A DNA stretch of 64,000 bases from an uncultured Cellvibrionales bacterium (GTDB lineage: Bacteria > Pseudomonadota > Gammaproteobacteria > Pseudomonadales > Porticoccaceae). Location: NCBI GenBank assembly GCA_913062605.1, contig CAJXWQ010000007.1:1-64000 (forward strand), written 5' to 3'. Positions within the stretch are counted from its first letter, which is position 1, and the number at the start of each line of letters is the position of its first letter. Of the stretch, positions 43,370-63,921 are shown piece after piece. A program made the position numbers and the translations under genes. A model generated the notes under the pieces. It saw only the letters and a program-made list of their open reading frames with translations. It was not told where the DNA came from and ran no database searches.

Positions 43370-43723
43370 CCAACCCTTTAGCAAGGGGCTATCTTTATAA
43401 AGATATTTTCCTCCCTAATTCACCTTCTCCGAACACAGGGTACGCCTTAGTCAGGAGGTCTAATCTGTTGAGTTTGGCATAGTAAAATAAAACAGGTGAA
43501 CGATTTTCGGTCAGGCCGTACGTTGCCATTTTTTCAACAGTCATTTTAAATAGTCTATATATAACAGTTGGTTAATGGTTTTTCTCTGTGTCATGTTGTT
43601 AATGGCACAGGGTTTGCAGTATTTAATCGATGCCCGTTGGATCATGAAGGTGGATTGAATCATCTTGGGCGAGGTAATTAACTCTACACAATCTCAGCTA
43701 GCAATGAATTAAGGTAACTCGAT
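43370..43723 (+). promoter_or_regulatory. Control region of the ketone carboxylase operon
   Basis: A 354-base non-coding stretch. It holds a 16-bp perfect palindrome TATCTTTATAAAGATA (43390-43405), followed at 43603 by a sigma-54 promoter. The roughly 200 bases between them are where an activator of the AcoR/AcxR type would be expected to bind, by analogy with other sigma-54 systems. Confidence 0.6.
43603..43618 (+). promoter_or_regulatory. Sigma-54 (-24/-12) promoter
   Basis: TGGCACAGGGTTTGCA fits the consensus TGGCAC-N5-TTGCA exactly, with 10 bases between the invariant GG and GC. It predicts a transcription start near 43629, about 95 bases before the first operon gene. A sigma-54 activator is encoded 13 kb downstream. 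Confidence 0.88.
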
Positions 43724-45661
43724 ATGGGAATGCTAATTAATATCGATAATGGCGGTACTCTCACAGATATCTGTGTGATTAACGGTAACGATTTTTATAA
43801 AACTAAAACGTTAACGACGCCTTATGATTTAAGTAAATGTTTTTTTGATGGTCTGAAGTCCGTCTCTAAAGTAGTTTATGGTGAGGAAGATGTGGCCAGA
43901 CTATTGGCTGAAGTAGAACACATTCGTTATTCTACTACTCAAGGCACCAATGCAATTGTTGAACGTAAAGGCCCAAAATTGGGACTGGTTATCAACAAAG
44001 GTAATGCTGGTTTGGTAGAGCGTATGCGCGCTCAAGATCCGGAGCTATATGACTTCTTTGTTGGGGACAGGGTAGAAGAAATTGATCTTGACCACCTGAG
44101 CGATGCTGGAAAAGCTGCAGATAGTGCAACAGCTATTACTCGACTCACTTCAGGTGGTGCTAACCGTGTCGTAGTTTGTTTCGACATTGATAATGCGAGT
44201 GAGTCTGAATCACAATTTAAGCAAGTAGCATTTGATAATTATCCTCGCCACTTGTTAGGCGCTGTACCCATGTTGTTTGCCAGTGAGTTGGCAGATGACG
44301 TGTCTGGAGACCGCCGAGGTTGGACTGCATTGATTAATTCCTTCTTGCATCCAGCGATGGAAAGCTTCCTCTACAACGCAGAAAACCGTCTGCGTGAATA
44401 TCGCACTAAGAACCCACTGTTAATTTTCCGCAACGATGGTGATGCATCTCGTGTGGCAAAAACCATTGCGCTGAAAACCTACAGCTCTGGTCCTCGTGGT
44501 GGTATGGAAGGTGTAAAAGCCTTCAGTAAGCAATACAACCTATCAAATGTTCTTTCCATGGATGTTGGCGGTACTACAACTGATATCGGCCATGTAGTTA
44601 GACATGAAGTGAATGAAGATCGTAGGGGTATGGTTGAAAATGTGCCAATTACCTTTGCTCTTTGTGAGATTGATAGCCCGGGTGTTGGTGGTAGCTCAAT
44701 TCTTTCAGTTCAGAATAAGGTTATCCAAGTTGGCCCAGAGAGTGTGGGTGCTGTTCCAGGGCCTGCCAGTTTTGGCCGCGGTGGTAAGAATTCAACCATT
44801 ACTGATGTAAATCTGTTGATGGGCCTGCTTGATCCTTCTACCTTTTTTGGTGGTGATTTGGCATTGGATATTGACCGTGCTCGTGCGGCGATAGCGGAAA
44901 ATATTGCCGATCCTTTGGGTGTGTCTGTTGATGATGCTTTACTACAACTACGCGATGCGTATGAGCAGAAGGTTTCCAATGAGCTAGGTAACTTTTGTGA
45001 GATTACAGAAGATACAGTCCTGCTTGCCTTTGGTGGTGCTGGTCCCATGAATGCCTGTGGTGCAGCAGATAAATGTGGCATCAAAACAGTATATGTTCCA
45101 AAAACTGCTGCTGTTTTCAGTGCCTATGGTATTGGTTCTTGTGATATTGGGCAGAGCTACCAAGTAGTGCTTTCTGATCATAAGCAAGAAACATTATCAA
45201 AAGCCTATGGCCAGCTACTGGAGCGTGCTGAGCGAGACATGTTTGCCGAAGGTTATGCCAAAGGTGAATATGAAGTGAGTGCTCAGTTGGTGGGAGACAA
45301 GGATGGTGCAGAATCTGTCCATGTGCTGGATGGTCATGTTGCCTTTCCTCAGGCGCTTGCCCACGCTGATGCAGTGACCTTAGAAGTTTCAGCTCGCAAG
45401 ACATTAAGAGTGGAAAGCGACAGTCATGCCGAAGTGAAAAAGGTGAATGCTGCCAAATCTTCAAAAACTCGTTCGATCTTTGGTGATAATAAAGAGTGGA
45501 CAGACGTGCCGGTTTACGACGTGGATTTTATGGAGCCTGGCGACTTTGGCGTAGGTCCAGCTGTTATTGAAGAAGAGTACTTTACCTGCTTGGTAAGAGA
45601 TGGCTGGGAATTTGTTGTAACTGAATTGGGCGATATTTGTTTGACCAAGGGGGCTGTGTAA
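43724..45661 (+). CDS. HyuA-like subunit of ATP-dependent ketone carboxylase (Apc alpha'-type)
   Basis: A 645-residue hydantoinase-A/oxoprolinase-superfamily protein with an ASKHA (actin-like) fold. First phosphate motif DNGGTLTD at residues 8-15, TTQGTNAIVERKG near 71, and second motif DVGGTTTDIG from residue 280. Asn9 replaces the usual Ile/Val of D(I/V)GGT. With the four following genes it reproduces the gene order and sizes of acetophenone carboxylase (about 70, 15, 78, 84 and 32 kDa). In that system the HyuA-type subunits activate bicarbonate and ketone using ATP. First gene after the sigma-54 promoter. The specific substrate is unknown; a hydantoinase role is less likely because of the gamma-like and epsilon-like genes. 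Confidence 0.85.
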   Translation: MGMLINIDNGGTLTDICVINGNDFYKTKTLTTPYDLSKCFFDGLKSVSKVVYGEEDVARLLAEVEHIRYSTTQGTNAIVERKGPKLGLVINKGNAGLVERMRAQDPELYDFFVGDRVEEIDLDHLSDAGKAADSATAITRLTSGGANRVVVCFDIDNASESESQFKQVAFDNYPRHLLGAVPMLFASELADDVSGDRRGWTALINSFLHPAMESFLYNAENRLREYRTKNPLLIFRNDGDASRVAKTIALKTYSSGPRGGMEGVKAFSKQYNLSNVLSMDVGGTTTDIGHVVRHEVNEDRRGMVENVPITFALCEIDSPGVGGSSILSVQNKVIQVGPESVGAVPGPASFGRGGKNSTITDVNLLMGLLDPSTFFGGDLALDIDRARAAIAENIADPLGVSVDDALLQLRDAYEQKVSNELGNFCEITEDTVLLAFGGAGPMNACGAADKCGIKTVYVPKTAAVFSAYGIGSCDIGQSYQVVLSDHKQETLSKAYGQLLERAERDMFAEGYAKGEYEVSAQLVGDKDGAESVHVLDGHVAFPQALAHADAVTLEVSARKTLRVESDSHAEVKKVNAAKSSKTRSIFGDNKEWTDVPVYDVDFMEPGDFGVGPAVIEEEYFTCLVRDGWEFVVTELGDICLTKGAV

Positions 45662-46065
45662 TGAAAGTTTTGATGACTGAATATCTCCGCATTGATCTGG
45701 AAACAGAAAATTGGGAGTGTCGCGTCTGTGAACATGTGGTCGGTTCGGCCCGTGGTAACTACAAAGAGGGGTTGCTGGTTTATAAGCGTGATCCCGAGGA
45801 TATCCATCCTTCGATAATTGACCCTGATAAATACAAGTTTACTTTCTGTCCTGACAAGGATTGGGTAAGCATTTATGAATTCTATTGCCCATCCTGTGGT
45901 ACTCAGATGGAGGTTGAATACACCTTCCCTGGGCACGAGCCGCTCTTCGATATGGAGGTGGATGTGGATGCCCTGAAAGAGCAGTGGAGTCACCGCGAAG
46001 AAATACTGGAGCCAGTTAAAGGCCCCAATGTTTTGGTGGATAGAACTCACGGTCACAATCATTGA
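45661..46065 (+). CDS. Zinc-binding gamma-like small subunit of ketone carboxylase
   Basis: A 134-residue protein matching the acetone carboxylase gamma-subunit family in its short, acetophenone carboxylase-type form. Cysteines 20, 23, 63, 76 and 79 (CRVC, FTFCP, YCPSC) are arranged as a zinc site, and the tail ends HGHNH. The start overlaps the stop of the preceding HyuA gene (TAATG), supporting a stoichiometric complex. Shorter than the roughly 168-residue AcxC of acetone carboxylase. Confidence 0.85.
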   Translation: MKVLMTEYLRIDLETENWECRVCEHVVGSARGNYKEGLLVYKRDPEDIHPSIIDPDKYKFTFCPDKDWVSIYEFYCPSCGTQMEVEYTFPGHEPLFDMEVDVDALKEQWSHREEILEPVKGPNVLVDRTHGHNH

Positions 46066-46177
46066 TAACTATTGCCATTGGCACTCATCGTCGTTGTGTA
46101 AATAGACGCTGAGTAAATGGATGGCTTGTTCAACAAGCGAATAACTAAATAGTTATAGAGTTTTAGGAAATAAAATT

Positions 46178-48328
46178 ATGAAACGTATATCAGTAGATAT
46201 CGGTGGTACTTTCACAGACTGCTTTGTGGTCTGGAATGGTAAGTATATTGAAACCAAAGCATTGACGACTCATCACAATCTCGCTCTGGGTTTCAATGAA
46301 GCTGTTGAAAAAGCGTATACCGAGTTAGACATCTCCATGGATGAAATCCTGGCTGGTGTTGACTCCGTTCGTTATGCAACAACGCTGGGTACTAATGCCC
46401 TAATTGAACACAATGGTCCACGTATCGGTATGTTGGTTACCGCTGGTTTTGAGGCAATGGTTCCCTTGAGCCGAGCGCGTGGTTATGGTGAAGGTCTAGA
46501 TGATCTAGGTAAGCAAAACTTACCTGATGCACAGCGTCCGGTACCATTGGTAATGCCACACATGATCGAAGGCGTGCGTGAACGTCTTGGTTTTGAAGGT
46601 GAGCTGGTTATGCCACTGGATGAAGCCGATGTGCGCCACAAGATCAGAACACTGGTCGATAAGGGTGCACAGGTTATCGTGGTTTGCTTGGTTAACTCTG
46701 TTGTTAACCCTGCCCACGAAAAACAAGTTGAGAGAATTCTCCTAGAAGAGTATCCAACACATTTGTTGGGTTCTATCCCTGTTATTTTGTCTCACCGTGT
46801 AGCTGGCCGTAAGGGTGAGTATGTACGTGCAACTTCAGCGATTGTTGATGGTTACCTGCACTCCACCATGTATCACGCTATGAGTCAGCTTGAGCAAAAC
46901 CTTCGTCAACATGGCTATACGAAACCCATGTTGGTTATCCATAATTCTGGTGGTATGGCTCAGTTGAACTCAACTGATGCGCTGCAAACTATTCACTCTG
47001 GTCCTGTTTCAGGTATCAGTGCCGCAGAGCATTTGGCTAAAGAGGCAGACCTCGGTAGTGTGATTGCAACGGATATGGGTGGTACTAGTTACGACATCGG
47101 TATCGTGGTTGAAGGTGGTATTAAGCACTATGACTTTAACCCGGTTATCGACCGCTGGTTAGTGTCCGTGCCTATGGTTCACTTGGTGACCTTGGGTGCT
47201 GGTGGTGGTTCTATCGCGTCCTTTGACCGTATGTACAATGCTGTAGCGGTTGGACCGAAGAGTGCAGGTTCTGATCCTGGTCCTGCCTGTTATGACCGTG
47301 GTGGTATGAAGCCAACGGTAACTGATGCTGACTTGGTATTGGGTTATCTCGATGCTGAAAACTACGCGGGCGGTAGTATTCCACTGAACCCGAAACGTTC
47401 ATTTTTCGCCATTGAAGAAGCGCTTTGTGACGATCTGGATGTTGAAGTTATTGAAGCTGCTCTACTGGTTAAAGAGAAAGTTGACAGCAACATGGCTAAC
47501 GGTGTGGGCACGGAGTTGCGTGTTCGCGGTTATGACCCCGAAGATTTCACCATGTTGGCTTATGGTGGTAATGGTCCTCTGCACTGTTGTGGTATCGCTT
47601 CAAACCTGAATATCAACAAGATTCTAGCGACGCCTATGAGCTCTGTGTTCTCGGCAGTGGGCGCCGGTAATATGCACCAGATGCATATTCATGAATCTTC
47701 ACTGTTTATGGTTCTTTATGATTCCACTTCTCGTAAGGTGTTTGATAACTACAAACGCTTTAACGATATCGTGGTTGAATTGAGCTTGCGTGGTCAAAAC
47801 GACCTGTTGCGTCAGGGGTCTAATGCTAAAGATATTAAGCACTCCCTTGAGCTGGATATGCGCTACGGTAACCAGTTGGTGCAAACCACGGTCGTTGTGC
47901 CTAAGCATTCCCTGGAATCTGTGATGGATGTAATGAACATTCTGGATCAGTTCTCTACGGATTATGGCAAGCGCTTTGGTGAAGGTAGTCAGGCGCCAGA
48001 AGCAGGTATTCGAATCAATACTATTCGTGTTGCTTCTTACGTTGAGCATGACACTGTTAAGTTCACACACATTAAACCTGTACCACAAGCTGAGCGTATT
48101 GCTCCGCCGGCACCATCAAGTACTCGTTCTTGTTACTTTGTAGGTGGAGAAGGCAAAGCTGTTGAAACGCCAGTGTGGAATAAAGCTGACATTCCAGCAG
48201 GTACAGAGATTGTGGGTCCAGGTCTTGTGGCGTCAGAAGTTACTACATATTTGGTTGAGCCCGGTTGGAAATATGTATCCGCAGAACAAGGTGCAGTTTG
48301 GTTCCTCCGTGCAGAAGCAAAGAATTAA
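46178..48328 (+). CDS. HyuA-like subunit of ketone carboxylase (Apc alpha-type)
   Basis: A 716-residue hydantoinase-A/oxoprolinase-superfamily protein with canonical ASKHA motifs: DIGGTFTD at residues 7-14, TTLGTNALIEHNGP near 70, HSGPVSG, and DMGGTSYDIG from residue 299. Closest in size to AcxA of acetone carboxylase. Being the second HyuA paralogue in the operon, it is the feature that separates this system from the three-subunit acetone carboxylases. Codon choice here (many GGT, GTT, CGT) looks like that of highly expressed genes. Confidence 0.87.
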   Translation: MKRISVDIGGTFTDCFVVWNGKYIETKALTTHHNLALGFNEAVEKAYTELDISMDEILAGVDSVRYATTLGTNALIEHNGPRIGMLVTAGFEAMVPLSRARGYGEGLDDLGKQNLPDAQRPVPLVMPHMIEGVRERLGFEGELVMPLDEADVRHKIRTLVDKGAQVIVVCLVNSVVNPAHEKQVERILLEEYPTHLLGSIPVILSHRVAGRKGEYVRATSAIVDGYLHSTMYHAMSQLEQNLRQHGYTKPMLVIHNSGGMAQLNSTDALQTIHSGPVSGISAAEHLAKEADLGSVIATDMGGTSYDIGIVVEGGIKHYDFNPVIDRWLVSVPMVHLVTLGAGGGSIASFDRMYNAVAVGPKSAGSDPGPACYDRGGMKPTVTDADLVLGYLDAENYAGGSIPLNPKRSFFAIEEALCDDLDVEVIEAALLVKEKVDSNMANGVGTELRVRGYDPEDFTMLAYGGNGPLHCCGIASNLNINKILATPMSSVFSAVGAGNMHQMHIHESSLFMVLYDSTSRKVFDNYKRFNDIVVELSLRGQNDLLRQGSNAKDIKHSLELDMRYGNQLVQTTVVVPKHSLESVMDVMNILDQFSTDYGKRFGEGSQAPEAGIRINTIRVASYVEHDTVKFTHIKPVPQAERIAPPAPSSTRSCYFVGGEGKAVETPVWNKADIPAGTEIVGPGLVASEVTTYLVEPGWKYVSAEQGAVWFLRAEAKN

Positions 48329-48343
48329 AGGGGTAGTTTTATT

Positions 48344-50617
48344 ATGAGCACTAATATAGACACTGAAGTTCAAGATCAGGAATTAATCCAGAAGTTCCTG
48401 AAAGACACGACACTATTTCTTGGGCCAGACCCTGAAATTATACGTGATCACCGAATCATGCCGCGTACTCCAGACGAAGAAGAGTGCATGGATAAATATA
48501 CCGATCTTAACCAGATTTCTTCTATTCGTGACCGCTTGCAGTCGGCGTGTGAAGAAGGTTTTGAGATGGTTGAGCAGATGGGTGCAGCGCCTGGTGCAAA
48601 ATGGGGTGATATTATCACTGGCATTTATTCCGCCTCAGGTGACTTGACCATTGGTAGTGCAGGCGGAGTATTGATTTTCTCTGCCCTGGTTCACCACCCA
48701 ATCAAGTTCATTATCAAAAACTGGATTGAAGAACATACCGTAGGTGTTAAAGAAGGTGATGGCTTCATCCATAACGATTCTCGTTACGGTAATGTGCACA
48801 ACACTGACCAGAGTATGATTTTGCCCGTGTTCCATGAAGGCAAGCTGGTCTGTTGGGCTGCGTCGACTGTTCACGAAGGTGAAAACGGCGCTATCGAGCC
48901 AGGCGGTATGCCTTCCATGGCTGAGACTTCCTTTGATGAGGGGTTGAAAATGTCTCCATTCAAAGTAGTTGAAAACTATGAAATCAAGAGAGATATTCTG
49001 ACCTTCTTGCAGAACTCGGTACGTGAGCCAAAACTGCAATACGAAGACATGAAGGTGAAACTGTTTGCCTGTATGCGTCTTGAGAAACGTATTAAAGAAG
49101 TCTTTGAAACGGATGGCCCTGATGCACTGACAGCTTGTCTCCGTTATACCAATGAGAGCGTAGTAAAAGAAGTGCGTAATCGTATCTCAGAGTGGCCAGA
49201 CATGACTGTTCGAACTCAGACCATTATGGACAGTACTCTGCGTGAAAATGCATTGTTGAAAATCAATTTGGCTTTGACCAAGAAAGGCGATCGTCTTATT
49301 TTTGACTTTACTGGCACTAGCCCTGAGTTGACTAACCGTGCGATTAACACTCAGTTGCCTGGTATGAAAGGTATGGTCGGCCAAGCATTTATGAATCACA
49401 TCTGGCCTGACCTGCCTCGTGGCCAAGCGGGTCTATCCCCGATTGAGTTTGTGTCTCAGGAAGGTACTTTGGTTGATTGCTCATATGAAGCACCTAACTC
49501 GCAGAGCCTGATGTCTATCTTCCACAGCTTTACTGTGGCGCAACACGCGACAGCTAAGTTCCTGTACAGCTGTCCAGACAAGTACACCCGAGTATTGGCG
49601 CCTTGGCACAATATGATCAACACCTTCATTTGGGGTGGGGTCAACCAGCACGGTGAGATGCTAGGTAACCTGTGTGCTGACCTCAACGGTATGGGTGGTG
49701 GTGCTCGTATGGACCGTGACGGAGAGCATGCGCTCGCTCCGATCTTTGCGACTATGGCAGATATCGGTGAACAAGAAATGAACGAGGAAGAAGTGCCATT
49801 CCTGCAGTTAGTTTCCAAGAAGATGACCGCTAACACCCAGGCGCCTGGCAAATACCGCGGTGGTATGGGTTACACCATGATTGCGTCTACCAAAGACAGT
49901 GATCAGTGGGGCTTCATGACGACGACTCAGGGTTCCAAGGTGCCAACCATTCAAGGCCTGTTCGGTGGGTACGCCGGTGGTTCTTATCCTTTGTGTAAAG
50001 TTACGGATGTAGATGTGTATGATGTTCTGCTCAAAAATCCTGAGCAGTTCAAGCATAGTATTCACGAAACAATGAATGAGCAGCCATTCCCGGATGCTTC
50101 ATATTCAACTCACCATATGGGCATGGGCTTCGATATTTCCAAGCGTGGTGAGCTGTACATGATTTCACAGGGTTCCGGTGGTGGTTATGGTGACCCTCTT
50201 GAACGTGATCCTACCTATGTGATTATGGATATTGAAGAAGGTCTGATTAGTTCGGACTGGGCGAAAAAACTGTATAAAGTCGAATTCAATGATGAGACTT
50301 TTGCTTTGGACCTGGAGGCAACAGAGAAACTCCGTGCTGACTATCGTGAGCTTCGTAAGCAACAGGGTAAGCCCTACGCTGAGTTTGTTAAAGAGCATGT
50401 TAAGGATACCCCGCCTGCAGATATTCCATTCTATGGTTCTTGGAACAGAGATCTAGACACTGTTTACGCGGGTAGTATTAACGACAAGCGTGATGCAAAA
50501 AATCCAGGTCCCATTTATGTGACAAATCCAAAAGATGTTAGGATTGGAGAACTGGAAGCAGAGCTTGAAGCAGTAAGAAAACAGGCTAATATTCCGGCAA
50601 CGGATACAAGGAAATAA
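48344..50617 (+). CDS. HyuB-like subunit of ketone carboxylase
   Basis: A 757-residue hydantoinase-B/oxoprolinase-superfamily protein, corresponding to AcxB or the Apc beta subunit, which carries the carboxylation site in the known complex. Recognisable segments are GSAGGVLIFSALVHHPIKFI, GDGFIHNDSRYGNVHNTDQ (metal/active-site region), FTGTSPELTNRAINTQ and GSGGGYGDPLERDP. Starts 16 bases after the preceding gene and ends 2 bases before the next, so it is firmly in the operon. Confidence 0.88.
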   Translation: MSTNIDTEVQDQELIQKFLKDTTLFLGPDPEIIRDHRIMPRTPDEEECMDKYTDLNQISSIRDRLQSACEEGFEMVEQMGAAPGAKWGDIITGIYSASGDLTIGSAGGVLIFSALVHHPIKFIIKNWIEEHTVGVKEGDGFIHNDSRYGNVHNTDQSMILPVFHEGKLVCWAASTVHEGENGAIEPGGMPSMAETSFDEGLKMSPFKVVENYEIKRDILTFLQNSVREPKLQYEDMKVKLFACMRLEKRIKEVFETDGPDALTACLRYTNESVVKEVRNRISEWPDMTVRTQTIMDSTLRENALLKINLALTKKGDRLIFDFTGTSPELTNRAINTQLPGMKGMVGQAFMNHIWPDLPRGQAGLSPIEFVSQEGTLVDCSYEAPNSQSLMSIFHSFTVAQHATAKFLYSCPDKYTRVLAPWHNMINTFIWGGVNQHGEMLGNLCADLNGMGGGARMDRDGEHALAPIFATMADIGEQEMNEEEVPFLQLVSKKMTANTQAPGKYRGGMGYTMIASTKDSDQWGFMTTTQGSKVPTIQGLFGGYAGGSYPLCKVTDVDVYDVLLKNPEQFKHSIHETMNEQPFPDASYSTHHMGMGFDISKRGELYMISQGSGGGYGDPLERDPTYVIMDIEEGLISSDWAKKLYKVEFNDETFALDLEATEKLRADYRELRKQQGKPYAEFVKEHVKDTPPADIPFYGSWNRDLDTVYAGSINDKRDAKNPGPIYVTNPKDVRIGELEAELEAVRKQANIPATDTRK

Positions 50618-50618
50618 A

Positions 50619-51479
50619 ATGTCTGTAGATTTGGTGAATTACCTATCGTCGGGGGGGGGATCCCCTCGGCTTTGGGTCGACTTTAACGACTACACTAAAA
50701 AGTTGTTGCTGGGTGAAAGCGATAATCCATGGACCACGCCTGCGGACTATATGTCCTTCTATGGTCAGGCTCATGGGTTGGTTAAATCCGAAGTGGTTGT
50801 GCTCAATGTTTGGGACTTGTTCCAGCACTGGATGCAAGAGGATGAAAAAGCCATTCCAGCCATGGCGGCTAAGCGTCGTGTCACATTTGCCTTGAAGACA
50901 ATGTTAGAGGCTTTTGCCCCTCGTGAGTTACTGGCTGAGGTTATTACCGCAGTCAGTAACAACTACGGAACCTCAACGCCGATTGTCCTGGTGATGCCTT
51001 CGCCTCGCGCACTTTTGGCGAAGGCTCATAAGGCTGCCACCGGCTCTGATGTGGAGCCGGATGAAATGGGTATAGATACAGCGGCGATGTACGTTGCTGA
51101 TTTTCTACGCTATTTCAGTGAGACGGATCTGTCTGGTGTGCTGTTGGTTGAGGACCCGGAGTTGAGACCTGCGAGTGGTGAAGAGTTGTCCTGGTATCAG
51201 CCGGTGATTAATGTCGCCAAGCACTATCGTTGGTCGGTGGGTGTTCATCTGCCGTTTTCTGATGGTGATTTCAAGGTGCCTGATGATATTGATTTTTCTA
51301 TTGTTCCCGCTGGATCTTCTGCAGCGGCGGATACTATGGGTCTCGATATTACCCAGCCACTTTGGGAGCAGGGTGCTGATGGCTTGTCTGTGGGAGAAAA
51401 TGGTTTTTACTATTTGTCTATTCCAACAGATATCCAGCCAGAACTCGTTCTTGACACACTTTCAAGTTTAAAAAATTAA
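50619..51479 (+). CDS. Apc epsilon-like protein of ketone carboxylase operon
   Basis: A 286-residue soluble protein I recognise only by position and size as the likely homologue of the fifth (epsilon) subunit of acetophenone carboxylase, which is separate from the core complex but needed for activity. No common domain stands out; SPRLWVDFNDYTKKLLL, PIVLVMPSPRALLAKAH and GVLLVEDPELRPASG are visible. Starts 2 bases after the HyuB stop. A run of nine Gs at 50651-50659, within codons 11-14 (SGGGS), makes the frame vulnerable to slippage. Its presence argues for an Apc-type rather than Acx-type system. Confidence 0.72.
   Translation: MSVDLVNYLSSGGGSPRLWVDFNDYTKKLLLGESDNPWTTPADYMSFYGQAHGLVKSEVVVLNVWDLFQHWMQEDEKAIPAMAAKRRVTFALKTMLEAFAPRELLAEVITAVSNNYGTSTPIVLVMPSPRALLAKAHKAATGSDVEPDEMGIDTAAMYVADFLRYFSETDLSGVLLVEDPELRPASGEELSWYQPVINVAKHYRWSVGVHLPFSDGDFKVPDDIDFSIVPAGSSAAADTMGLDITQPLWEQGADGLSVGENGFYYLSIPTDIQPELVLDTLSSLKN
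50651..50659 (+). repeat. Nine-G homopolymer within coding sequence
   Basis: An uninterrupted G9 tract close to the start of the epsilon-like gene. One-base slippage would abolish the product. Could be a phase-variation tract, or simply codons for Gly-Gly-Gly. Confidence 0.9.
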
Positions 51480-51523
51480 ACCCTGTTGTGGGTGGATAGT
51501 TGTAGGCGGGTAGGTTAACTGCG

Positions 51524-53098
51524 ATGCGTCTTGTTGATTTTCTTGATCGTAGCCCGGCCATGACTAATAGTGATGCCCGGTTTATTGATCTTGATAACGA
51601 TGTGTCGCTCAGCTATCAGGAAATGGTGAATGCATCAATTCACCTTGCCGACCTATTAAGGAAAAAGGGGGTGAAGTCGCAGGATGTTGTCGCGACTTAC
51701 GCCCCTAATTCTGTTGCTGCCTATTGCTGTATTTTTGCTATTTCTCGTGTGGGGGCAGCCTGGTTGCCCCTTAACACTCGAAGTACATTTGAATCCAATT
51801 TAAAACTGATCGACAAGTCAGAGGCGGTGATGCTCTTTGTCGATAAGGGTCTTGCTGCGGCAAATTCCCAGTTCTCTGATCATTTTAGTGATGATCAGTT
51901 GATTTTCCTCGACGGTCAGCAGATTGCTGGCCTGGTTTTTTCTTCCCTGTCAGAAGCGCCTTTTCAAGGTTCCAGCTTCGATGATCAATACCCTGTGCCT
52001 GAGGCAGACCAGGCACTTGTGTCGCTGTTGGCCACTGGTGGAACCACCGGGGACTCCAAGTTGGCGGAGTGGGGTAGCTTGGCCTGGCAAACCTTCACAT
52101 CTATTCAGGCGGAGGTGATGCCGCTGCCTGATATCCCGGCCTGTTATTTAGTTTCGGCACCAATGACCCATGCTGCCGGTATCGCCTCTTTTGCCGTTAT
52201 AGGTCAGGGGGCAACTATCCTGGTGATGGATGGCATGGTGCCTGAGAGGCTTCTCTCGGCCATTGAAGCCTATCGCGTCACGCATCTTTTTCTGCCGCCC
52301 ACAGCGGTTTATATGCTGATGGCTGATGAGCATGTGAGAGACCATGATTATTCAAGTCTGCGGTATTTCTGGTATGCGGCGGCACCCATGTCAGTAGAAA
52401 AACTGAAAGAGGCTGTCGCCATTTTTGGTCCGGTGATGGTTCAGACTTACGGTCAGGCTGAAGCGCCGATGATTTGTACTTTCTTTTCGGCCCAAGATCA
52501 TGTGGATGCCCTGGAACATGGTTATCCCTCCATACTGCGTTCTTGTGGTAAGCCATCGCCACAGGTGGAATTGGAGGTTATGGATGATGAGGGCAATATC
52601 CTTCCATACGGACAGGAAGGTGAAATCGCTGTGAGGGGAAATATCCTGATGCGGGGATATTATAAAAACCCTGAAGCAACCGCCGCCATTAGAAAAGGTG
52701 GATGGCAGCGTACCGGAGATATCGGAGTTTTCGATAAGAATGGTTACTTAGCCATCGTTGATCGCAAGCACGACATGATTATTTCTGGTGGCTTTAATGT
52801 GTATCCCGGTGAAATTGAGCAGTTGATCTGGGGGCATCCAGCCATCAAGGATTGTGCTGTTATCGGTGTTCCCGATGATAAATGGGGTGAGCAGGTCACT
52901 GCAGTCATTGAGTTGAAAGATGAAGGCTGTAAACCTGACGAGCAGGAAATTATTGATTACTGTAAGAAACAGCTCGGTAGTGTTAAGGCCCCCAAGCAGG
53001 TGTTGTTTTGGGATGAACTGCCTCGTAGCCCTGTGGGCAAAGTTCTAAAAAAAGAAATACGTAAAATTTTCTGGGATATGCAAGGTCGAAAGATATAA
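51524..53098 (+). CDS. AMP-forming acyl-CoA ligase (benzoylacetate-CoA ligase-like role)
   Basis: A 524-residue ANL-superfamily ligase. P-loop ATGGTTGDSK near residues 170-179 (Asp replaces the usual Pro), YGQAEAPMI, RTGDIGVFDKNGYLAIVDRKHDMIISGG (hinge), catalytic Lys506 in PVGKVLKK. Position directly after the carboxylase genes suggests it activates the 3-oxo acid they produce, as benzoylacetate-CoA ligase does in the acetophenone pathway. Chemistry is sure; the substrate is inferred. Confidence 0.88.
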   Translation: MRLVDFLDRSPAMTNSDARFIDLDNDVSLSYQEMVNASIHLADLLRKKGVKSQDVVATYAPNSVAAYCCIFAISRVGAAWLPLNTRSTFESNLKLIDKSEAVMLFVDKGLAAANSQFSDHFSDDQLIFLDGQQIAGLVFSSLSEAPFQGSSFDDQYPVPEADQALVSLLATGGTTGDSKLAEWGSLAWQTFTSIQAEVMPLPDIPACYLVSAPMTHAAGIASFAVIGQGATILVMDGMVPERLLSAIEAYRVTHLFLPPTAVYMLMADEHVRDHDYSSLRYFWYAAAPMSVEKLKEAVAIFGPVMVQTYGQAEAPMICTFFSAQDHVDALEHGYPSILRSCGKPSPQVELEVMDDEGNILPYGQEGEIAVRGNILMRGYYKNPEATAAIRKGGWQRTGDIGVFDKNGYLAIVDRKHDMIISGGFNVYPGEIEQLIWGHPAIKDCAVIGVPDDKWGEQVTAVIELKDEGCKPDEQEIIDYCKKQLGSVKAPKQVLFWDELPRSPVGKVLKKEIRKIFWDMQGRKI

Positions 53099-53158
53099 CG
53101 CTTGTCCCTTTTCATATTTGAATATCTAGATAAACATAAACAGTAGTGAGGTTATCAC

Positions 53159-54424
53159 GTGAAGGTCAGCATAGTTGGTGCATACAATACAAAATTTGGT
53201 TCGTTTGTTAAGCGAGATCGCGAAACAGGCACAGTCGAAGACCAGAAATCTTTTTATGAATTGCTCATAGAGGCTGGCGCTGGCGCCATTGCTGATGCAG
53301 GCCTGGAAGCAAAGGATATTGATGCCATTTGGGTGGGTGCATGTTCACCATCCCTGTTCTTGAACCAGGAGCACGTAGGGCCTCTGGCGTTGGAAATTGA
53401 TCCTGAGGGCTTGTTGTTTAAACCGACAACTCGAACAGAAGGGGCCTGTGCCACGTCTTCACTAGCTATTTATAATGCTGCATATGCGGTGGCATCCGGT
53501 CGATTTAAAAATGTCTTGGCTCTCGGTGTTGAAAAGATGAGTTTGCTGGATACACCCGGAGTAACCCACGCGCTGGCCTGCTGTTCATACTGGCCTACTG
53601 AAGGTGCTGGCGGGATGACCTTCCCTGGGTTGTTTGCCGAGCTGGGAACTGCCTACCAGGAAAAACACAATATCAGTGATGATCAATTGAGAACCATGTT
53701 GGCCCATGTGTCCGCATTGAACTACAAAAATGGTATTCAAAACCCACTGGCTCACTTTGGTCCTGGCAGCTTGCCCGATAGAAATCAGCTGGTGACGGCT
53801 GAAGCCATTCTTAACTTGCCTGATTCCGGTAAGGGTAGTAACCCGATGATTGCACCACCTCTTCGGTTGCACGATTGTTCTTTGATCACCGATGGTGCCG
53901 CAGCGGTTGTATTGACCTCTTCCGAGAATGCTAAAGTGGGATTCAAGCATGCGGTTGAATTGTCCGGTGTGGGCCATGTGACTGAGCGGATGATGCTGAA
54001 AGAGCGCCAGGGTCGGTTGCATGAATTGCAGGCAACCCAGCATGCGGTGAACCTTGCCTGTACAGAAGCGGGTGTAGTTGTTGGCGATCTGGATTTTGCT
54101 GAAGTGCATGATTGTTTCACTATCAATGAGCTGCTTTGTGCTGAAGCCATTGGCTTGTCTCTTCCTGGGCAGGCAGGCTATGACATGATGGCCGGCAAGT
54201 TTAATCCTGAGGGTGATTGTCCTATCAATCTATCCGGTGGTCTGAAGGCGAAAGGTCATCCCGTGGGAGCGACGGGTGCCTCCATGCATGCGCTGGCCTA
54301 TAAGCAGTTAACTGGAGCTCCTATTGGTATTGCCGCTAAGGGGAGCCCTGAGGTTGCCATGACAGTTAACATCGGCGGATCCGGTGTCACTAACTGTGTA
54401 TCAGTCCTTCGTCGAATACAGTAA
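53159..54424 (+). CDS. Thiolase family protein (SCP-x-type)
   Basis: A 421-residue thiolase that would split the 3-oxoacyl-CoA made by the preceding ligase into an acyl-CoA and acetyl-CoA. Nucleophile Cys97 in EGACATSS, active-site His in GHPVGATG (His367), and Cys413 in TNCVSV. Sequence style (NTKFGSF at the start, GGLKAKGHPVG) is of the SCP-x type, whose members often pair with a small DUF35 zinc protein; none is here. GTG start 53159 with GAGG upstream. Ends at a strong terminator, closing the operon. Confidence 0.9.
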   Translation: MKVSIVGAYNTKFGSFVKRDRETGTVEDQKSFYELLIEAGAGAIADAGLEAKDIDAIWVGACSPSLFLNQEHVGPLALEIDPEGLLFKPTTRTEGACATSSLAIYNAAYAVASGRFKNVLALGVEKMSLLDTPGVTHALACCSYWPTEGAGGMTFPGLFAELGTAYQEKHNISDDQLRTMLAHVSALNYKNGIQNPLAHFGPGSLPDRNQLVTAEAILNLPDSGKGSNPMIAPPLRLHDCSLITDGAAAVVLTSSENAKVGFKHAVELSGVGHVTERMMLKERQGRLHELQATQHAVNLACTEAGVVVGDLDFAEVHDCFTINELLCAEAIGLSLPGQAGYDMMAGKFNPEGDCPINLSGGLKAKGHPVGATGASMHALAYKQLTGAPIGIAAKGSPEVAMTVNIGGSGVTNCVSVLRRIQ

Positions 54425-54435
54425 CGTTTTTACAG

Positions 54436-54455
54436 GGTGTAATATGATTTACACC
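54436..54455. repeat. Inverted repeat after thiolase gene
   Basis: Perfect GGTGTAA / TTACACC with a 6-base spacer, 12 bases after the thiolase stop and upstream of the terminator. Either an extra RNA hairpin or an operator-like site. Confidence 0.5.
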
Positions 54456-54477
54456 TCACAGGCGAATCTTTAACAGA

Positions 54478-54510
54478 ACGGCACCGCTTGATAATGACGG
54501 TGCCGTTTTT
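54478..54510 (+). terminator. Rho-independent terminator of the ketone carboxylase operon
   Basis: ACGGCACCG / CGGTGCCGT nine-pair stem with an 11-base loop, followed by a T-run. It ends the roughly 10.9-kb unit that begins at the sigma-54 promoter. Confidence 0.95.
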
Positions 54511-54639: not shown

Positions 54640-54740
54640 CATGTTTACATGGGTGGCTGTTTAAGCGGCGGGTTATTCCAGATTGTCTTCGAGCAAATAT
54701 TATGGGTCAAATGTCATAGGTCAAACAGTGGAGTATGGAT

Positions 54741-55463
54741 ATGTCTAAAGTAGCCTTGGTAACTGGTGGAACAAGAGGGATCGGCGAAGCAATTGCTGTG
54801 GAACTCAAGGAGGCTGGTTATGTTGCGGTGGCTAATTACGCCAATAACGATGATTGTGCCAAAGAGTTTACGGAGCGAACGGGGATACCCACGTACAAAT
54901 TTGATGTGTCTGATTTTGAGGCATGTAAAAATGGGATTGAGTCCATTGAGCGTGATGTCGGGCCCGTATCAGTTCTGATTAATAACGCCGGGATCACCCG
55001 GGATAAGACCATGCATCGCATGTCCCCTGAATCCTGGCAGGCAGTGTTGGATACAAATTTGGGGTCTTGCTTTAACTTGTGTCGCTGTGTGATTGAGCAC
55101 ATGAGGGAGAACAATTTTGGGCGCATCGTAAATATTGGTTCTGTTAATGGCCAAGCAGGCCAGTATGGTCAAGTGAATTATGCTGCAGCCAAGTCCGGGA
55201 TTCATGGTTTTACTAAAGCATTAGCTTTGGAGAGTGCCTCTCATGGCATCACAGTGAATGCCATTGCTCCAGGCTATGTGGATACCGATATGGTGCGTAA
55301 TGTACCAGCGGATGTTCTCGAAAAAATTATCGCTACTATTCCTGTGGGTCGATTAGGCACGGCACATGATATAGCGCGGTCAGTATTATTTTTGGTCTCT
55401 GATGATGGCGGTTTTATTACCGGCTCAACCCTGTCGATCAATGGCGGCCAACACATGTATTAA
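54741..55463 (+). CDS. Short-chain dehydrogenase/reductase (FabG/PhaB-like)
   Basis: A 240-residue NAD(P)-dependent SDR. Cofactor motif GGTRGIG at residues 9-15, NNAGITRD near 82, catalytic Ser134, Tyr147 and Lys151 (YAAAK). Closest in feel to acetoacetyl-CoA reductases (PhaB). In this context it could instead oxidise a secondary alcohol to the ketone fed to the carboxylase, as 1-phenylethanol dehydrogenase does in the acetophenone pathway; sequence alone does not decide. ATG 54741 preferred over ATG 54735 because GTGGAG lies at the right distance. Confidence 0.88.
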   Translation: MSKVALVTGGTRGIGEAIAVELKEAGYVAVANYANNDDCAKEFTERTGIPTYKFDVSDFEACKNGIESIERDVGPVSVLINNAGITRDKTMHRMSPESWQAVLDTNLGSCFNLCRCVIEHMRENNFGRIVNIGSVNGQAGQYGQVNYAAAKSGIHGFTKALALESASHGITVNAIAPGYVDTDMVRNVPADVLEKIIATIPVGRLGTAHDIARSVLFLVSDDGGFITGSTLSINGGQHMY

Positions 55464-55501: not shown

Positions 55502-55547
55502 TTGCGTTTCAATTTTATTTACCCTTTTTCTCACTGGAGGCTTGCTG

Positions 55548-56534
55548 GTGAAGGCTGCTCTATTCAATACATTGGGTTCTCCCGATGCTGTGTTGGAAGT
55601 TATTGATGTTGACACTCCTTCCCCGGGTCACGGAGAGGTGCTGGTACGTATAGCCTGTTCCGCTGTTAATCCTTCAGATGTTAAGAAGCGTGCCGGGCCA
55701 TCCCCTGGTCTATTAGACGATGGGTATATTATTCCTCATAGTGATGGGGCGGGTGTTGTCGAAGCCGTTGGGCGGGGTGTGCCAGCCTCCAGAATTGGGG
55801 AGAGAGTGTGGGTTTATCAGGCGCAATATGCCCGGCGTTTTGGTACCGCTGCAGAATATGTAGCATTGCCCTCTGATCGAGCGGTTAAACTCCCAAATGC
55901 TATTGATTTTGATGTGGGGGCCTGCATGGGTATTCCTGCAATGACCGCGCATCGTTGTGTTTTTGCTGATGGTCCTGTGGATGGTAAAACAGTGCTAGTA
56001 ACTGGCGGCGCGGGCAGGGTGGGGCACTATGCTATTCAGTGGGCGAAACATGCAGGTGCGCAGGTGATTGCCACTGCAAGCAGCCCTGAGGCAGAAGAGC
56101 ACTGTTTTGCAGCAGGTGCTGATGCGGTATGCCCTCATAGTGGTGATGAGTTTGTTCGGGTGATTGCAGAGGAAACCTCTGGCCGGGGCGTCGACCGGGT
56201 GGTAGATGGTGAGTTTGGCGCCAATTTGCCTGGGCTGCTTGATGTTATGAATACGGGTGGGGTGATTGCAACGTATGCCTCCATGCGGGTGCCGGAGCCA
56301 GTGCTGCCTTTCAGGCAGATGATGTTCATGGATATCACAATACGCCTGGTGTTGGTCTACGCGATGCCTGAGCCAGCGAAGCTGGATGCTATTGAGGATA
56401 TTACGGACTGCCTTGATAAGGGGCTACTACAACATAGGATTGCTCACCGGTTGCCATTGGAAAAGATTGCGATGGCTCACCAATTGGTTGAGCAGAGTGG
56501 TTTTTATGGAGTTGTTGTCGTCGATGTAGAGTAA
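55548..56534 (+). CDS. Zinc-free MDR: NADPH:quinone oxidoreductase-like protein
   Basis: A 328-residue medium-chain dehydrogenase/reductase of the quinone oxidoreductase (zeta-crystallin) type. N-terminal MKAALFNTLGSPDAVLEV, SAVNPSDVKKRAG, and the Rossmann VTGGAGRVGHYAIQWAKHAGA near residues 147-167. No zinc-ligand cysteines are visible. Start GTG 55548 has GGAGG 7 bases upstream; TTG 55542 is in frame. Follows the SDR on the same strand. Role in ketone metabolism is inferred from position. Confidence 0.87.
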   Translation: MKAALFNTLGSPDAVLEVIDVDTPSPGHGEVLVRIACSAVNPSDVKKRAGPSPGLLDDGYIIPHSDGAGVVEAVGRGVPASRIGERVWVYQAQYARRFGTAAEYVALPSDRAVKLPNAIDFDVGACMGIPAMTAHRCVFADGPVDGKTVLVTGGAGRVGHYAIQWAKHAGAQVIATASSPEAEEHCFAAGADAVCPHSGDEFVRVIAEETSGRGVDRVVDGEFGANLPGLLDVMNTGGVIATYASMRVPEPVLPFRQMMFMDITIRLVLVYAMPEPAKLDAIEDITDCLDKGLLQHRIAHRLPLEKIAMAHQLVEQSGFYGVVVVDVE

Positions 56535-56640: not shown

Positions 56641-58644
56641 TTAGCGGGGCTTCTTCAAACCGTATTTTTTCATTTTTTGGTAAAGCGTACTTTTCGCTAT
56701 GCCCAAAATTTTTGCTGCTTGGGTCATATTGCCTTCTGATTGTTTCACCGCGGCTTCAATTGTTTTCTTCTCTACCGTATCAAGGCTGCATAGTGGCTGG
56801 CTGAAGTCACCTACGCTGGGTTCTGAGCCGATAGCGGTCTCACCTGGTTTGTAGCCATCGGGCAAGTCATCCGGTGTTAGTGTTTCGTTCTGAGACATGA
56901 AGCACATGCATTCAACCACATTGACCAATTCTCTAATGTTGCCAGACCATTCTCTGTTCTTTAAAGCGGACATTAGGGCAGAGGAAAAATGCTTGGGCAC
57001 GACAGTATGTGACTTGTTGACTCGGTCAAGGGTCAGCTTTGAGATGCCTTCTATGTCTTCCTTGCGCCCTGAAAGGGGGTCGAGGCTGATGGTTACCGTA
57101 GACAAGCGGAAGAACAAGTCTTTCCGAAAGAGCCCATCATTGACGGCTTTTTTGAGGTCTCTGTTGGTCGCTGCGATGAGCCTGAAGTCTACAGAGATGG
57201 GCTTGATGTCACCAACGCGATAAATTTTACGTTCCTGTAAAACTCGAAGAAAAACTGGTTGAATTTCAAGGGGCATTTCGCCAATTTCATCAAGGAATAA
57301 AGTGCCGCCGTTGGCCGCCTCGATTTTGCCTATCATTCCGCCTTTTTTTGCGCCCGTGAACGCGCCTTCAACATGGCCGAATAGTTCGCTGCTCAGGATA
57401 TCTTTGGAGAAAGCACCACAGTTCAGGTCAATGAAAGGGCCTTTGCCATAATTGCTGGATTCGTGAATGGCTTGTGCAAACACTTCCTTGCCTACACCGG
57501 TATCCCCCAGAATGAGAACGGGGAGTGGCGTGGTGGCGACTTTTCGGGCTTTGTTGGCACTAGCTTTAAACGAGGGGCTGTTGCCATAGATCTCATCGAA
57601 AGGGTCAAATTTCGAGGTGGCGGGCCGGGGTAGTTCAGCACTGGCTGGATTGCGTTGATGGTCGCTTCTACCCGAAGGAACGAGCAACTGGAATCCCAGG
57701 ACTTCATTCTTATAGCAGATGGGTTCAACCCAGTCTTCTGAAATCCAGGAGCCCTGGTCGTGGGGGTAAATGATTTCTTCCCCGCCGAACCGTTGCAGCG
57801 ATAACCGACGCTTCGCATCGGGGTTGTAATCGATGCCGAGGGAGTCCAAAGCTGCGCTGGCATTGGGTGAAAAACTGATGAGCCGACCCCGTTTGTCAAA
57901 GAGTAGCTTGCCCGAGTTGCGGTAATGGCCGAAATTACTGCTGCTGTGTTCGAGGATTGTACTCCATTGCTGGGCGGTTTTTTTGGCGAGATCCGCTTGA
58001 ATCTGGCTGGCCCAGGCAACCACGAGGGGAACGTGAAACTTGTCGTAAATACTGCACAGCCCCGATAGATCAATCACCCCCATCATTTGGTTGTCGTAGG
58101 GGTCGGCAATCACCGCTGCGGTGCAGGTCCAGGGCTTGAAGCCCTGGCAGTAATGTTCTTCGCCGTGAACCTGGGTGGTTTTGCGGTTGGCCATGGCTGT
58201 TCCCACGGCATTCGAGCCGGACACAACCTCGTTCCAGCCGCTTCCGGGTACCAATCCAATGCCGTTAGCTTCGTAAAGGGTTTTTGAGTCACCGACAATC
58301 TCAAGGTTCAGGCCCTGGTAGTCGGTGAGAAATAAAATGGTTTCGAGGTCATGCAAAAACATCCGAGCTTGTTCTAGCACCGGGCGTGCGCAATTGATTA
58401 ATTCATTGTTTTTGTATTGTAGGGCTTGCAGAACGCTCTCGGGGGCCACCAGCGGAGCGGCTTGTTGCTCGGGGTTGACTCCCTGGGAAAGGCATCGCTC
58501 CCAGGAGTTGGCAATAATGGAGCGAATGGGGAGGTTTTCAGCATGGCCGCCCGTGCAGAGGAATTGTTCCCATGCATCATCTACATCCTTCTGAGAAGAA
58601 AAACCAATGATCTCCTGTGGTTTTTTAGGATGGTCGCGCCTCAA
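56641..58644 (-). CDS. AcoR/AcxR-type sigma-54-dependent activator
   Basis: A 667-residue bacterial enhancer-binding protein. GAF-like sensor domain (about residues 70-230, with [18 protein letters not shown]), AAA+ domain with Walker A GDTGVGKE near 376, sigma-54-contacting GAFTGAKKG near 428, Walker [14 protein letters not shown], and a Fis-type helix-turn-helix at the C-terminus ([20 protein letters not shown]). The AcoR group senses small molecules directly, and AcxR of this type controls acetone carboxylase genes. Placed between the catabolic and envelope units, it is the obvious activator of the sigma-54 promoter at 43603. Confidence 0.92.
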
Positions 58645-61130: not shown

Positions 61131-61162
61131 GAAAAGCTGTTTAAAACAGATGATATGAGATT

Positions 61163-61199: not shown

Positions 61200-61227
61200 A
61201 AGACTGAATTAAACTGGGAGTATTACT

Positions 61228-62844: not shown

Positions 62845-63921
62845 ATGAACGTTGCTGGAAATGACCTTGCTGAAAATAAAACGCCTGAATCTACGGGCTC
62901 AGAAGAACAGTCAGCAGGTAAAAAGTTTTTACTTACAATCGTGTCAATATTGCCATGGGCAATTGTTGGTACCCTGCTTTGGGCTGGTATTTTTGTAAAA
63001 CCTACAGCGGTTGTAGAGGAAGTGATTTCTGCTCCGATTAATGTCAGAGATAATATCTTTGGTGTTGCTCATGTTGATGGGGACGTCTACCTGGCAGCAG
63101 GTAACTATGGAAAAATGCTAATTACTAAAGATGGTGGAAAGACTTGGGAAAACCAAAATTCTACCGTTAGCGTACACCTTATGGATATTTCTTCCTGGGA
63201 TAAAAACCGTGCTGTTGCTGTGGGTAACGGCGGTACTACTCTTATGACGGAAGATGGTGGTAAAACCTGGGTATCCGTAGATTCACCTAAATCGGATATA
63301 GCGAACAAACTACTTAAGGTTCACACCTATCCCGGTGGTGAAGCGTTGGCAGTAGGCGAGATGGGTATGATTATTCGCAGTACTGACTATGGTAAGACCT
63401 GGCAGCAACTGCGCGAAGAAAACGATATCTTCATGAATGATGTGGTCAAGGTGGATGCCAATACAATTTGGGTTGCTGCCGAGTATGGCCAGATATTCAA
63501 GAGTAGTGACAACGGTGAAACTTGGGAAGAGCTCTTTACTGACAGCCCGAACAGTTTTGCTGCAATCGATGCGAAAAACCCTCAAGAAATTACCATTGTT
63601 GGACTGGCCGGCGTTGTTGTTGGTACAACAGATGGTGGTGAGACTTGGAATTATGTGTCACCAGGGCAATCTGGCATGACAGAGCACATGATGGATGTTC
63701 AGTGGTCTGACGAAATCAACAGATGGGTGGCCATGGGCAACAAAGGTAAGTGGATGACCTGGAAAGCTGACATGACTGACTTTGAGCCAATGAATATTTC
63801 TGAAACTGACTATACATCGCACATGGAGATGGAGATAGTCGGCGGTAAAGGCCTTGCCGTTGGTGCTACTGTAGGTTCATTAGATTTAGAATCGAAAACT
63901 TGGACATTGTACGCCGAGTAA
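62845..63921 (+). CDS. YCF48-like beta-propeller membrane-anchored protein
   Basis: A 358-residue protein with one N-terminal membrane helix (about residues 29-52, LTIVSILPWAIVGTLLWAGIF) and then repeated KDGGKTWE / EDGGKTW / DNGETWE / DGGETW motifs spaced about 40 residues apart, i.e. a YCF48/BNR-type propeller facing the periplasm. In DUF1302/DUF1329/MMPL clusters such a protein is the usual companion. GGGGG upstream acts as ribosome-binding site. Confidence 0.9.
   Translation: MNVAGNDLAENKTPESTGSEEQSAGKKFLLTIVSILPWAIVGTLLWAGIFVKPTAVVEEVISAPINVRDNIFGVAHVDGDVYLAAGNYGKMLITKDGGKTWENQNSTVSVHLMDISSWDKNRAVAVGNGGTTLMTEDGGKTWVSVDSPKSDIANKLLKVHTYPGGEALAVGEMGMIIRSTDYGKTWQQLREENDIFMNDVVKVDANTIWVAAEYGQIFKSSDNGETWEELFTDSPNSFAAIDAKNPQEITIVGLAGVVVGTTDGGETWNYVSPGQSGMTEHMMDVQWSDEINRWVAMGNKGKWMTWKADMTDFEPMNISETDYTSHMEMEIVGGKGLAVGATVGSLDLESKTWTLYAE

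Follow-up and report, generated by a model that had tools for sequence, protein, structure and literature searches.

Acetophenone carboxylase (Apc) of Aromatoleum aromaticum is encoded by apcABCDE and is composed of two kinases of the HyuA type that carry ASKHA motifs, a gamma subunit with four cysteines, a HyuB core, and a separate epsilon subunit with a fold like that of uroporphyrinogen decarboxylase (URO-D). Structures exist for the core (5l9w) and for ApcE (9fou). According to the available portion of PMC5214803 (section 7), only one enzyme of the Apc branch was characterised as of 2017. Acetone carboxylase, AcxABC (Xanthobacter, Aromatoleum; 5svb, 5m45), is made up of three genes in another order. 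It also combines HyuA, HyuB, and a zinc gamma subunit, but has a single HyuA and neither alpha' nor epsilon. Hydantoinases, 5-oxoprolinases, and caprolactamase (HyuAB, CapAB) share the HyuA and HyuB families and are without gamma, alpha', and epsilon. This work concerns an Apc-like operon at positions 43603-54510 of a 64,000-nucleotide stretch of DNA, the window, from an uncultured Cellvibrionales bacterium of the Porticoccaceae. The window is contig 7 of a 2.17 Mb host genome with an estimated completeness of 91%, and the nearest named records to the locus are Porticoccus metagenome-assembled genomes (MAGs).

With a probability of roughly 80%, the product of the operon is an ATP-dependent, biotin-independent ketone carboxylase with five subunits that has the acetophenone carboxylase architecture and belongs to a clade of its own. 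Open reading frames and motif scans of the window give one operon composed of a sigma-54 site, apcABCDE, an acyl-CoA ligase, a thiolase, and a terminator. An earlier note on this DNA had listed five genes for proteins of 645, 134, 716, 757, and 286 amino acids (aa), and all are present in that order and on that strand. The ligase and thiolase that it linked to them carry Pfam AMP-binding and thiolase domains and lie in the same operon. The extent that it gave fits a transcription unit, with the sigma-54 site at the start and the terminator at the end. The genes apcA and apcB overlap by 1 base, and the gaps that follow are 112 nt (apcB-apcC), 15 nt (apcC-apcD), and 1 nt (apcD-apcE). The terminator hairpin at 54475-54509 was missed by a pattern scan and found by a folding-energy test. 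Judged by its sequence, the operon is real and functional-looking.

The core subunits resemble those of Apc more than those of any other described enzyme compared. Pfam Hydantoinase_A is found in two operon proteins, ApcA and ApcC, and NCBIfam ranks its ApcA, ApcB, ApcC, and ApcD models first for the four core subunits, respectively; CapA and CapB models also match, with lower scores. The HyuA and HyuB proteins score 531 and 295 bits against the solved Apc, 265 and 137 against acetone carboxylase (half the bit score), and 259 and 100 against hydantoinases. ApcD matches 5l9w_A with an E value of 1e-86, compared to 8e-39 for acetone carboxylase. ApcA (DNGGT, DVGGT, GAVPGP) and ApcC (DIGGT, DMGGT, GSDPGP) both retain intact motifs for phosphate-1, phosphate-2, and adenosine, so both kinase sites should work. 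An AlphaFold2 model of ApcC from a 10-row alignment had a predicted local distance difference test score (pLDDT) of 57.4 and was not used.

The two HyuA proteins can be told apart. A fingerprint of the R/KERiDsxG type marks alpha, and not alpha', in the Apc branch, as given in the accessible text of PMC5214803. The window ApcC carries it as RERLGFEG, with D changed to G, and the window ApcA has none. Across the clade, 79 of 90 distinct ApcC rows carry the looser pattern [RK]ER-N4-G, and 1 of 98 ApcA rows carries [RK]ER. The gamma subunit ApcB has cysteines at C20, C23, C76, and C79, and each of these positions is a cysteine in all 71 distinct rows. At 134 aa, it is shorter than the gamma subunits of the host's Acx-like clusters (166 and 187 aa) and has no Acx-type N-terminal extension. 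This extension of ~50 aa is described for Acx gamma and as absent in the Apc branch (PMC5214803, in part). In ApcD, D89, H152, D155, and H177 are the equivalents of Apc beta D65, H123, D126, and H148. No alternative residue occurs at these positions in 87 distinct rows, with 2-3 rows gapped. The acetone carboxylase equivalents H150, D153, and H175, together with E89, bind Mn according to the part of PMC10865871 that is available. For Apc, the available sections of PMC5214803 report mercury at this HyuB site and favour the cysteine site for zinc.

The earlier note had counted the fifth protein as part of an Apc-type makeup, which holds for position and predicted fold and not for sequence. No Pfam or NCBIfam family and no PHROGs match was found for it, and phmmer against PDB gave no match up to an E value of 10. 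The AlphaFold2 model, from a 15-row alignment, has a pLDDT of 85.8. Its top three Foldseek matches are all chains of the ApcE structure 9fou, with E values between 1.5e-7 and 3.3e-7, and the next are uroporphyrinogen decarboxylases and a methyltransferase at 2.6e-4 and weaker. By VIA-align, the model lies on ApcE with 4.1 Å over 264 residues and an identity of 13%; the VIA list is filled by URO-D and other TIM-barrel entries, and a family missing there carries no meaning. The protein is therefore rated ApcE-like, a putative epsilon subunit by position and predicted fold only, because the sequence profiles do not match. Epsilon sequences are described as far more divergent than the other Apc subunits in section 7 of PMC5214803, a source available in part.

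For the trees, 48, 29, and 20 rows were selected from the 105 for ApcC or 104 for ApcD together with outgroups; a long-branch warning from the tree tool applies to the HyuA and HyuB trees. In the HyuA tree, the window clade (support 99/98) is joined to Aromatoleum Apc (92/94) and stands apart from hydantoinases. The alternative of Acx with the clade has a p value in the approximately unbiased test (p-AU) of 0.054, just short of rejection. The window ApcA falls together with that of Aromatoleum (100/99). In both trees, four rows of hydantoinase type are set apart as a group of their own (HyuB 100/100, HyuA 99/98). The Aromatoleum Apc locus used for comparison (L123) is taken as such because of the matches of its ApcD to 5l9w_A (residues 1-684, 1607 bits) and of its ApcE to 9fou (residues 1-303, 655 bits). 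Identity of the window proteins to this locus is 34% for ApcA, 46% for ApcB, 38% for ApcC, and 30% for ApcD. Both systems have a CoA ligase linked to the operon (apc-bal in PMC4729919), with the difference that the window ligase is FadD-like.

Several observations weigh against the Apc assignment. The scores of the core subunits are all far short of the equivalog cut-offs (NF042960 353 of 1250 bits, NF042974 124 of 250, NF042975 580 of 1500, NF042976 333 of 1500). The HyuB tree puts the clade (92/97), mildly, with Acx at 75/78, and at 97/93 in the 29-row tree; the alternative of Apc with the clade is not rejected (p-AU 0.37). HyuB is also Acx-like in length, with 757 aa (clade median 759), compared to 684 in Aromatoleum Apc, which is 73 residues shorter, and 783 and 735 in the host's Acx-like clusters. 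The rule that Apc HyuB is ~50 aa shorter than Acx HyuB is an approximate one in the available text of PMC5214803. For the fifth protein, VIA-align Z scores reach 18.2 for URO-D and 17.5 for ApcE, a tie, and hhalign against Aromatoleum-type ApcE gave a probability of 1.5%, with no detectable sequence similarity. The Asp-His-Asp-His set of HyuB was considered as a carboxylase marker for its agreement with the acetone carboxylase metal ligands and dropped, since 4 of 4 hydantoinase-type rows carry it; the set thus marks the whole family.

As the sequence comparisons stand, the HyuB tree does not resolve Apc from Acx affinity, and the shared alpha', epsilon fold, and gene order favour kinship with Apc. 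Identities of 30-46%, a HyuA clade of its own, changed pocket residues, the longer HyuB, and an epsilon alike only in fold place the operon in a deep clade apart from, and not orthologous to, Aromatoleum Apc. The Apc-like makeup proposed earlier is supported. The proposed distinction from acetone carboxylase, by two HyuA proteins and a fifth subunit, also holds. The outcome that the note had named as refuting, HyuA and HyuB among hydantoinases or oxoprolinases, did not occur. The enzyme class is already known, its chemistry is rare, and the clade is distinct.

The clade turns up in aerobic Proteobacteria, on Rhodococcus plasmids, and in a haloarchaeon. In an even sample, a close ApcC (E 1e-150 or better) is found in 6 of 369 genomes of the class, own genome included, so the clade is uncommon. 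A match to the fifth protein is found in 19 of 112 genomes of the family and 12 of 17 of the genus, again with the own genome included. Isolates that carry the clade include Xanthobacter, Zoogloea, Azotobacter, Celeribacter, and Acinetobacter populi, and plasmids of Neorhizobium and Rhodococcus, including Rhodococcus RHA1 and DK17, carry it as well. The haloarchaeon Halorientalis has a five-gene set that is 45% identical, accompanied by genes for AMP-binding and thiolase proteins. Of 500 confirmed stretches, the best 80, with ApcC 66-97% identical, were named and fetched with up to 10 kb on each side. Open reading frames in these loci were picked by homology guidance, and neighbour identities were taken from representatives. 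Several contigs entered the set twice under two locus labels (e.g., L014 and L033), and counts of distinct sequences exclude such repeats. Among the 80 named ApcC loci, many of them on short contigs, ApcA, ApcB, ApcD, and ApcE are present at 77, 75, 77, and 69, respectively. The order apcABCDE-ligase-thiolase-SDR-(MDR)-activator-DUF1302-DUF1329, in which SDR and MDR denote short-chain and medium-chain dehydrogenases/reductases, is kept wholly or partly in the fetched loci of the genus. The ratio of nonsynonymous to synonymous change (dN/dS) was at most 0.11 in 18 of 20 comparisons with finite dS against L014, L015, L017, and L018, and dS was infinite in 2; the codon comparison counts every differing position singly. 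Selection is strongly purifying.

The sequence TGGCAC-N5-TTGCW at 43603-43618 is the only perfect sigma-54 match in the window. With at most one mismatch, 5 sites are found in the window against 3.4 expected, which is chance level. Of 81 distinct sequences upstream of apcA, 51 have a site with at most two mismatches, where mononucleotide shuffles predict 1.8; with duplicates kept, the count is 57 of 89 loci and the expectation 2.4. It is absent or weak elsewhere, including all Rhodococcus and g5, g7, and g11 family loci. The activator at 56641-58644 contains GAF, AAA, and Fis-type domains, has a homologue in 51 of the 80 named loci, and may control the operon. PMC4729919 predicts that Aromatoleum apc is under the control of a two-component system, adiRS, and regulation of the window operon through a sigma-54 site and GAF-type activator seems different. 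For Rhodococcus ruber, PMC6498646 mentions a cluster that may encode acetophenone carboxylase and has a regulator of the Fis family. A weak sigma-54-like site lies at ~54625 before the SDR gene; its 3 mismatches make it weak evidence.

Table 1. Features of the operon and its downstream neighbours in the window
Feature	Position	Strand	Evidence or remark
Sigma-54 (-24/-12) promoter-like site TGGCACAGGGTTTGCA	43603..43618	+	121 nt upstream of apcA; sole 0-mismatch match in window
ApcA-like subunit alpha', 645 aa, second HyuA-type ASKHA kinase, proposed bicarbonate kinase	43724..45661	+	NF042960 353 bits; PF01968/PF05378
ApcB-like subunit gamma, 134 aa, four-cysteine zinc protein	45661..46065	+	PF08882 (Acetone_carb_G) E 1.6e-34
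ApcC-like subunit alpha, 716 aa, HyuA-type, proposed ketone kinase	46178..48328	+	NF042975 580 bits; 5l9w_B E 4e-158
ApcD-like subunit beta (HyuB), 757 aa	48344..50617	+	PF02538 (Hydantoinase_B) E 3.9e-81; 5l9w_A E 1e-86
ApcE-like fifth subunit (putative epsilon), 286 aa, predicted URO-D fold	50619..51479	+	AlphaFold2 and Foldseek
AMP-forming acyl-CoA ligase, 524 aa, putative 3-oxo acid:CoA ligase	51524..53098	+	PF00501/PF13193; PRK06187 370 bits, cut-off 476
Thiolase-like enzyme, 421 aa, putative 3-oxoacyl-CoA thiolase	53159..54424	+	PF22691/PF00108/PF02803; PRK07516 339 bits, cut-off 412
Intrinsic terminator at operon end	54475..54509	+	hairpin -20.4 kcal/mol, z -6.1, T run
SDR, acetoacetyl-CoA reductase subfamily	54735..55463	+	TIGR01829 337 bits, cut-off 302
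MDR	55542..56534	+	PF00107/PF08240; nearest PIG3 quinone/enone reductase model TIGR02824, 137 bits, cut-off 297
Sigma-54-dependent activator	56641..58644	-	GAF, Sigma54_activat, HTH_8 domains
DUF1302 protein, conserved downstream neighbour	59322..61130	+	PF06980; synteny
DUF1329 protein	61228..62682	+	PF07044
YCF48/BNR-repeat protein, same envelope cluster	62845..63921	+	PF14870 E 1.7e-18

The substrate is probably a ketone other than acetone, as judged from the pocket residues and the rest of the genome. Five of the seven proposed ketone-pocket residues differ from Apc (L81T, F281I, N282H, Q344H, T345L; T72, I272, H273, H335, and L336 in window numbering). The changes are near-uniform in 90 distinct rows of the clade (T in 88, I in 86, H in 89, H in 85, L in 89) and speak against plain acetophenone. 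The host genome also contains a separate HyuA-HyuB-gamma cluster (L031) in Acx order with its own perfect sigma-54 site, and its HyuA scores 1067 bits to acetone carboxylase 5svb_B compared to 346 to Apc. This separate acetone carboxylase argues against acetone as the substrate of the window enzyme. When genomes are sorted by frame length, a gamma gene frame of 170-176 aa, like that of L031, occurs in 16 of 17 from the same genus and is missing from G083.

A third carboxylase-like set of the host genome (L032; contig 6, 8641-13932) has the order HyuB-gamma-HyuA, unlike Acx, Apc, or the hydantoinases, and its HyuA is nearest to acetone carboxylase (491 bits compared to 309). It adjoins an acetate-CoA-ligase-like gene, a CaiB-type CoA-transferase, and an acyl-CoA dehydrogenase. 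Upstream are a 3-oxoadipyl-CoA thiolase and a DUF1329 gene that is 83% identical to that of the window. A gamma gene of L032-like frame length occurs in one other genome of the genus, G079.

It is unlikely that the enzyme is an authentic carboxylase of acetophenone or aryl alkyl ketones that shares the substrate range of Aromatoleum Apc and serves for aryl ketones from the degradation of polycyclic aromatic hydrocarbons (PAHs). The subunit makeup and order match, a species of the genus degrades PAHs (PMC4472908), and the linked envelope cluster has DUF1329 and DUF1302 relatives beside the Aromatoleum-type apc locus L125 as well. The altered pocket and the separate clades in the trees speak against this range, as does the ligase, which has no BLAST match at 1e-3 in four Aromatoleum-type loci, where Bal itself was not located. 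A 660-aa frame in these loci, guessed to be a possible Bal, matched none of the ligases. A second carboxylase for acetone or short 2-alkanones, with acetoacetyl-CoA used by the SDR and by genes like those for polyhydroxyalkanoate (PHA) synthase, is about equally doubtful. The SDR, which exceeds its TIGR01829 cut-off, and the 3-oxoacid CoA-transferases of pcaIJ/scoAB type that accompany relatives would indeed suit acetone or another small ketone and so count against the preferred substrate. Sigma-54 control as at the host's acetone carboxylase and the two PhaC-like matches of the genome, which stay under the cut-off, also suit this reading. On the other side are the acetone carboxylase that the genome already has by sequence, its gamma frame in 16 of 17 genomes of the genus, and a ligase that is FadD-like rather than an acetoacetyl-CoA synthetase.

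An ATP-dependent hydrolase (hydantoinase, oxoprolinase, or lactamase) in place of a carboxylase is very improbable and was rejected. The HyuA and HyuB families and the lower-scoring CapA and CapB matches are what such an enzyme would share. The zinc gamma, the second HyuA, and the ApcE-fold subunit are foreign to it, hydantoinases group separately in both trees and score half the bits or less, and the ligase and thiolase share the operon. A ketone carboxylase of Apc architecture remains the preferred reading, with a hydrophobic or enone-derived ketone other than acetone as the suggested substrate. PMC3660661 cites work by Rontani on 6,10,14-trimethylpentadecan-2-one; an isoprenoid ketone as substrate is speculation.

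By analogy with Apc, ApcC would phosphorylate the enol(ate) of the ketone and ApcA would phosphorylate bicarbonate. ApcD, with its Asp-His-Asp-His site, and the zinc protein ApcB would hold the complex and may host the C-C bond step, and epsilon would close it. The ligase would activate the 3-oxo acid to its CoA ester, which the thiolase would split to acetyl-CoA and a shorter acyl-CoA. The sigma-54 promoter and adjacent activator would turn the operon on. At the 80 named loci, a thiolase is found in 28, a ligase in 23, and a 3-oxoacid CoA-transferase in 14-15, homologues that fit a 3-oxo acid product.

Other neighbours vary among the named loci. DUF1302 is found in 14 and a zinc alcohol dehydrogenase in 9. 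A CobW GTPase cluster is present in 36 (e.g., L079 15431-16747; two members checked by Pfam), hinting at metal loading of the enzyme. For this host, a metal chaperone was set aside, as one CobW query, run with no positive control, matched nothing in the host genome; the idea is therefore not applied to the window. A ZIP transporter lies directly behind apcE in 6 loci (L068 15322-16293, L061, L067, L071, L096, L102). A dedicated RpoN paralogue (one member checked by Pfam) lies near the operon and activator in 11 loci and on one plasmid (e.g., L084, L086, L087, L113). A second MDR is present in 8 loci, directly upstream of apcA in the six gammaproteobacterial MAGs among them, and the one member tested is curcumin/enone-reductase-like, below cut-off.

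The envelope cluster that the earlier note had linked to the operon is present downstream as DUF1302, DUF1329, and YCF48-type genes (59322-63921), and YCF48-related genes are found in 6 other loci. A DUF1302/DUF1329/YCF48/MMPL cluster, in part or whole, also accompanies an Apc-like operon in Zoogloeaceae/Rhodocyclaceae, and lies beside the operon in L058, L062, L070, L072, L088, L096, and L097. Just upstream of the operon, at 42908-43369, is a DUF3565-DUF1971 fusion with a weak TehB-model match, which occurs in 15 other fetched loci, some being one contig twice. Three genomes (G534, G627, G728) have 2-3 ApcC-type matches each at ~1180-1265 bits, indicating more than one clade copy per genome in some relatives. 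Short contigs binned as Kordiimonadaceae, Emcibacter, and Nitrospinaceae (L041, L045, L049) carry the operon, with an ApcC 84-88% identical to that of Porticoccus, either by misbinning or by recent transfer. Weak Acetone_carb_G matches in 571-796 aa frames of G005, G006, G009, G010, and G089 are possibly the zinc domain fused to a larger protein.

The host is assigned to Porticoccus; as proposed earlier, it belongs to an aerobic marine gammaproteobacterial genus. P. hydrocarbonoclasticus MCTG13d is a strictly aerobic, phytoplankton-associated PAH degrader (PMC4472908). The earlier note had taken the link to the envelope cluster to suggest a little-described ketone pathway in such a bacterium. 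The aerobic host stands; the Aromatoleum pathway also runs aerobically (PMC4729919, as far as available), so aerobic use as such is not new. In the literature searched, by titles and abstract openings and with subscription papers mostly outside the search, no description of the clade was found. The available text of PMC8125074 names Porticoccus, with neither "ketone" nor "carboxylase" found in it, and PMC8461187, in the part available, concerns a biotin-type carboxylase outside the family.

Baeyer-Villiger enzymes are the usual aerobic ketone route. Tentatively, the clade could make up a second class of ketone carboxylases with five subunits, itself widespread, with the operon studied here as its marine branch and with substrates of its own. 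These would be hydrophobic methyl ketones, possibly from alpha,beta-unsaturated ketones in view of the adjacent enone-reductase-like MDR, e.g., lipid-, isoprenoid-, or PAH-derived. CO2 fixation would then take the place of a Baeyer-Villiger monooxygenase in strictly aerobic hydrocarbonoclastic bacteria. In part of the class, CobW, ZIP, and an own sigma-54 factor would point to metal loading and own regulation, and epsilon may host the carboxylation.

The annotation "hydantoinase/oxoprolinase family protein" conceals the clade's putative carboxylase. The clade is a test case for the role of epsilon and for the question of whether the conserved metal-type site of HyuB has the same function in Apc as in acetone carboxylase. 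Because the clade is deep and found in culturable aerobes, the substrate question is directly testable. If confirmed, aerobic hydrocarbon degraders would use an ATP-costly, oxygen-independent, CO2-fixing step on ketones.

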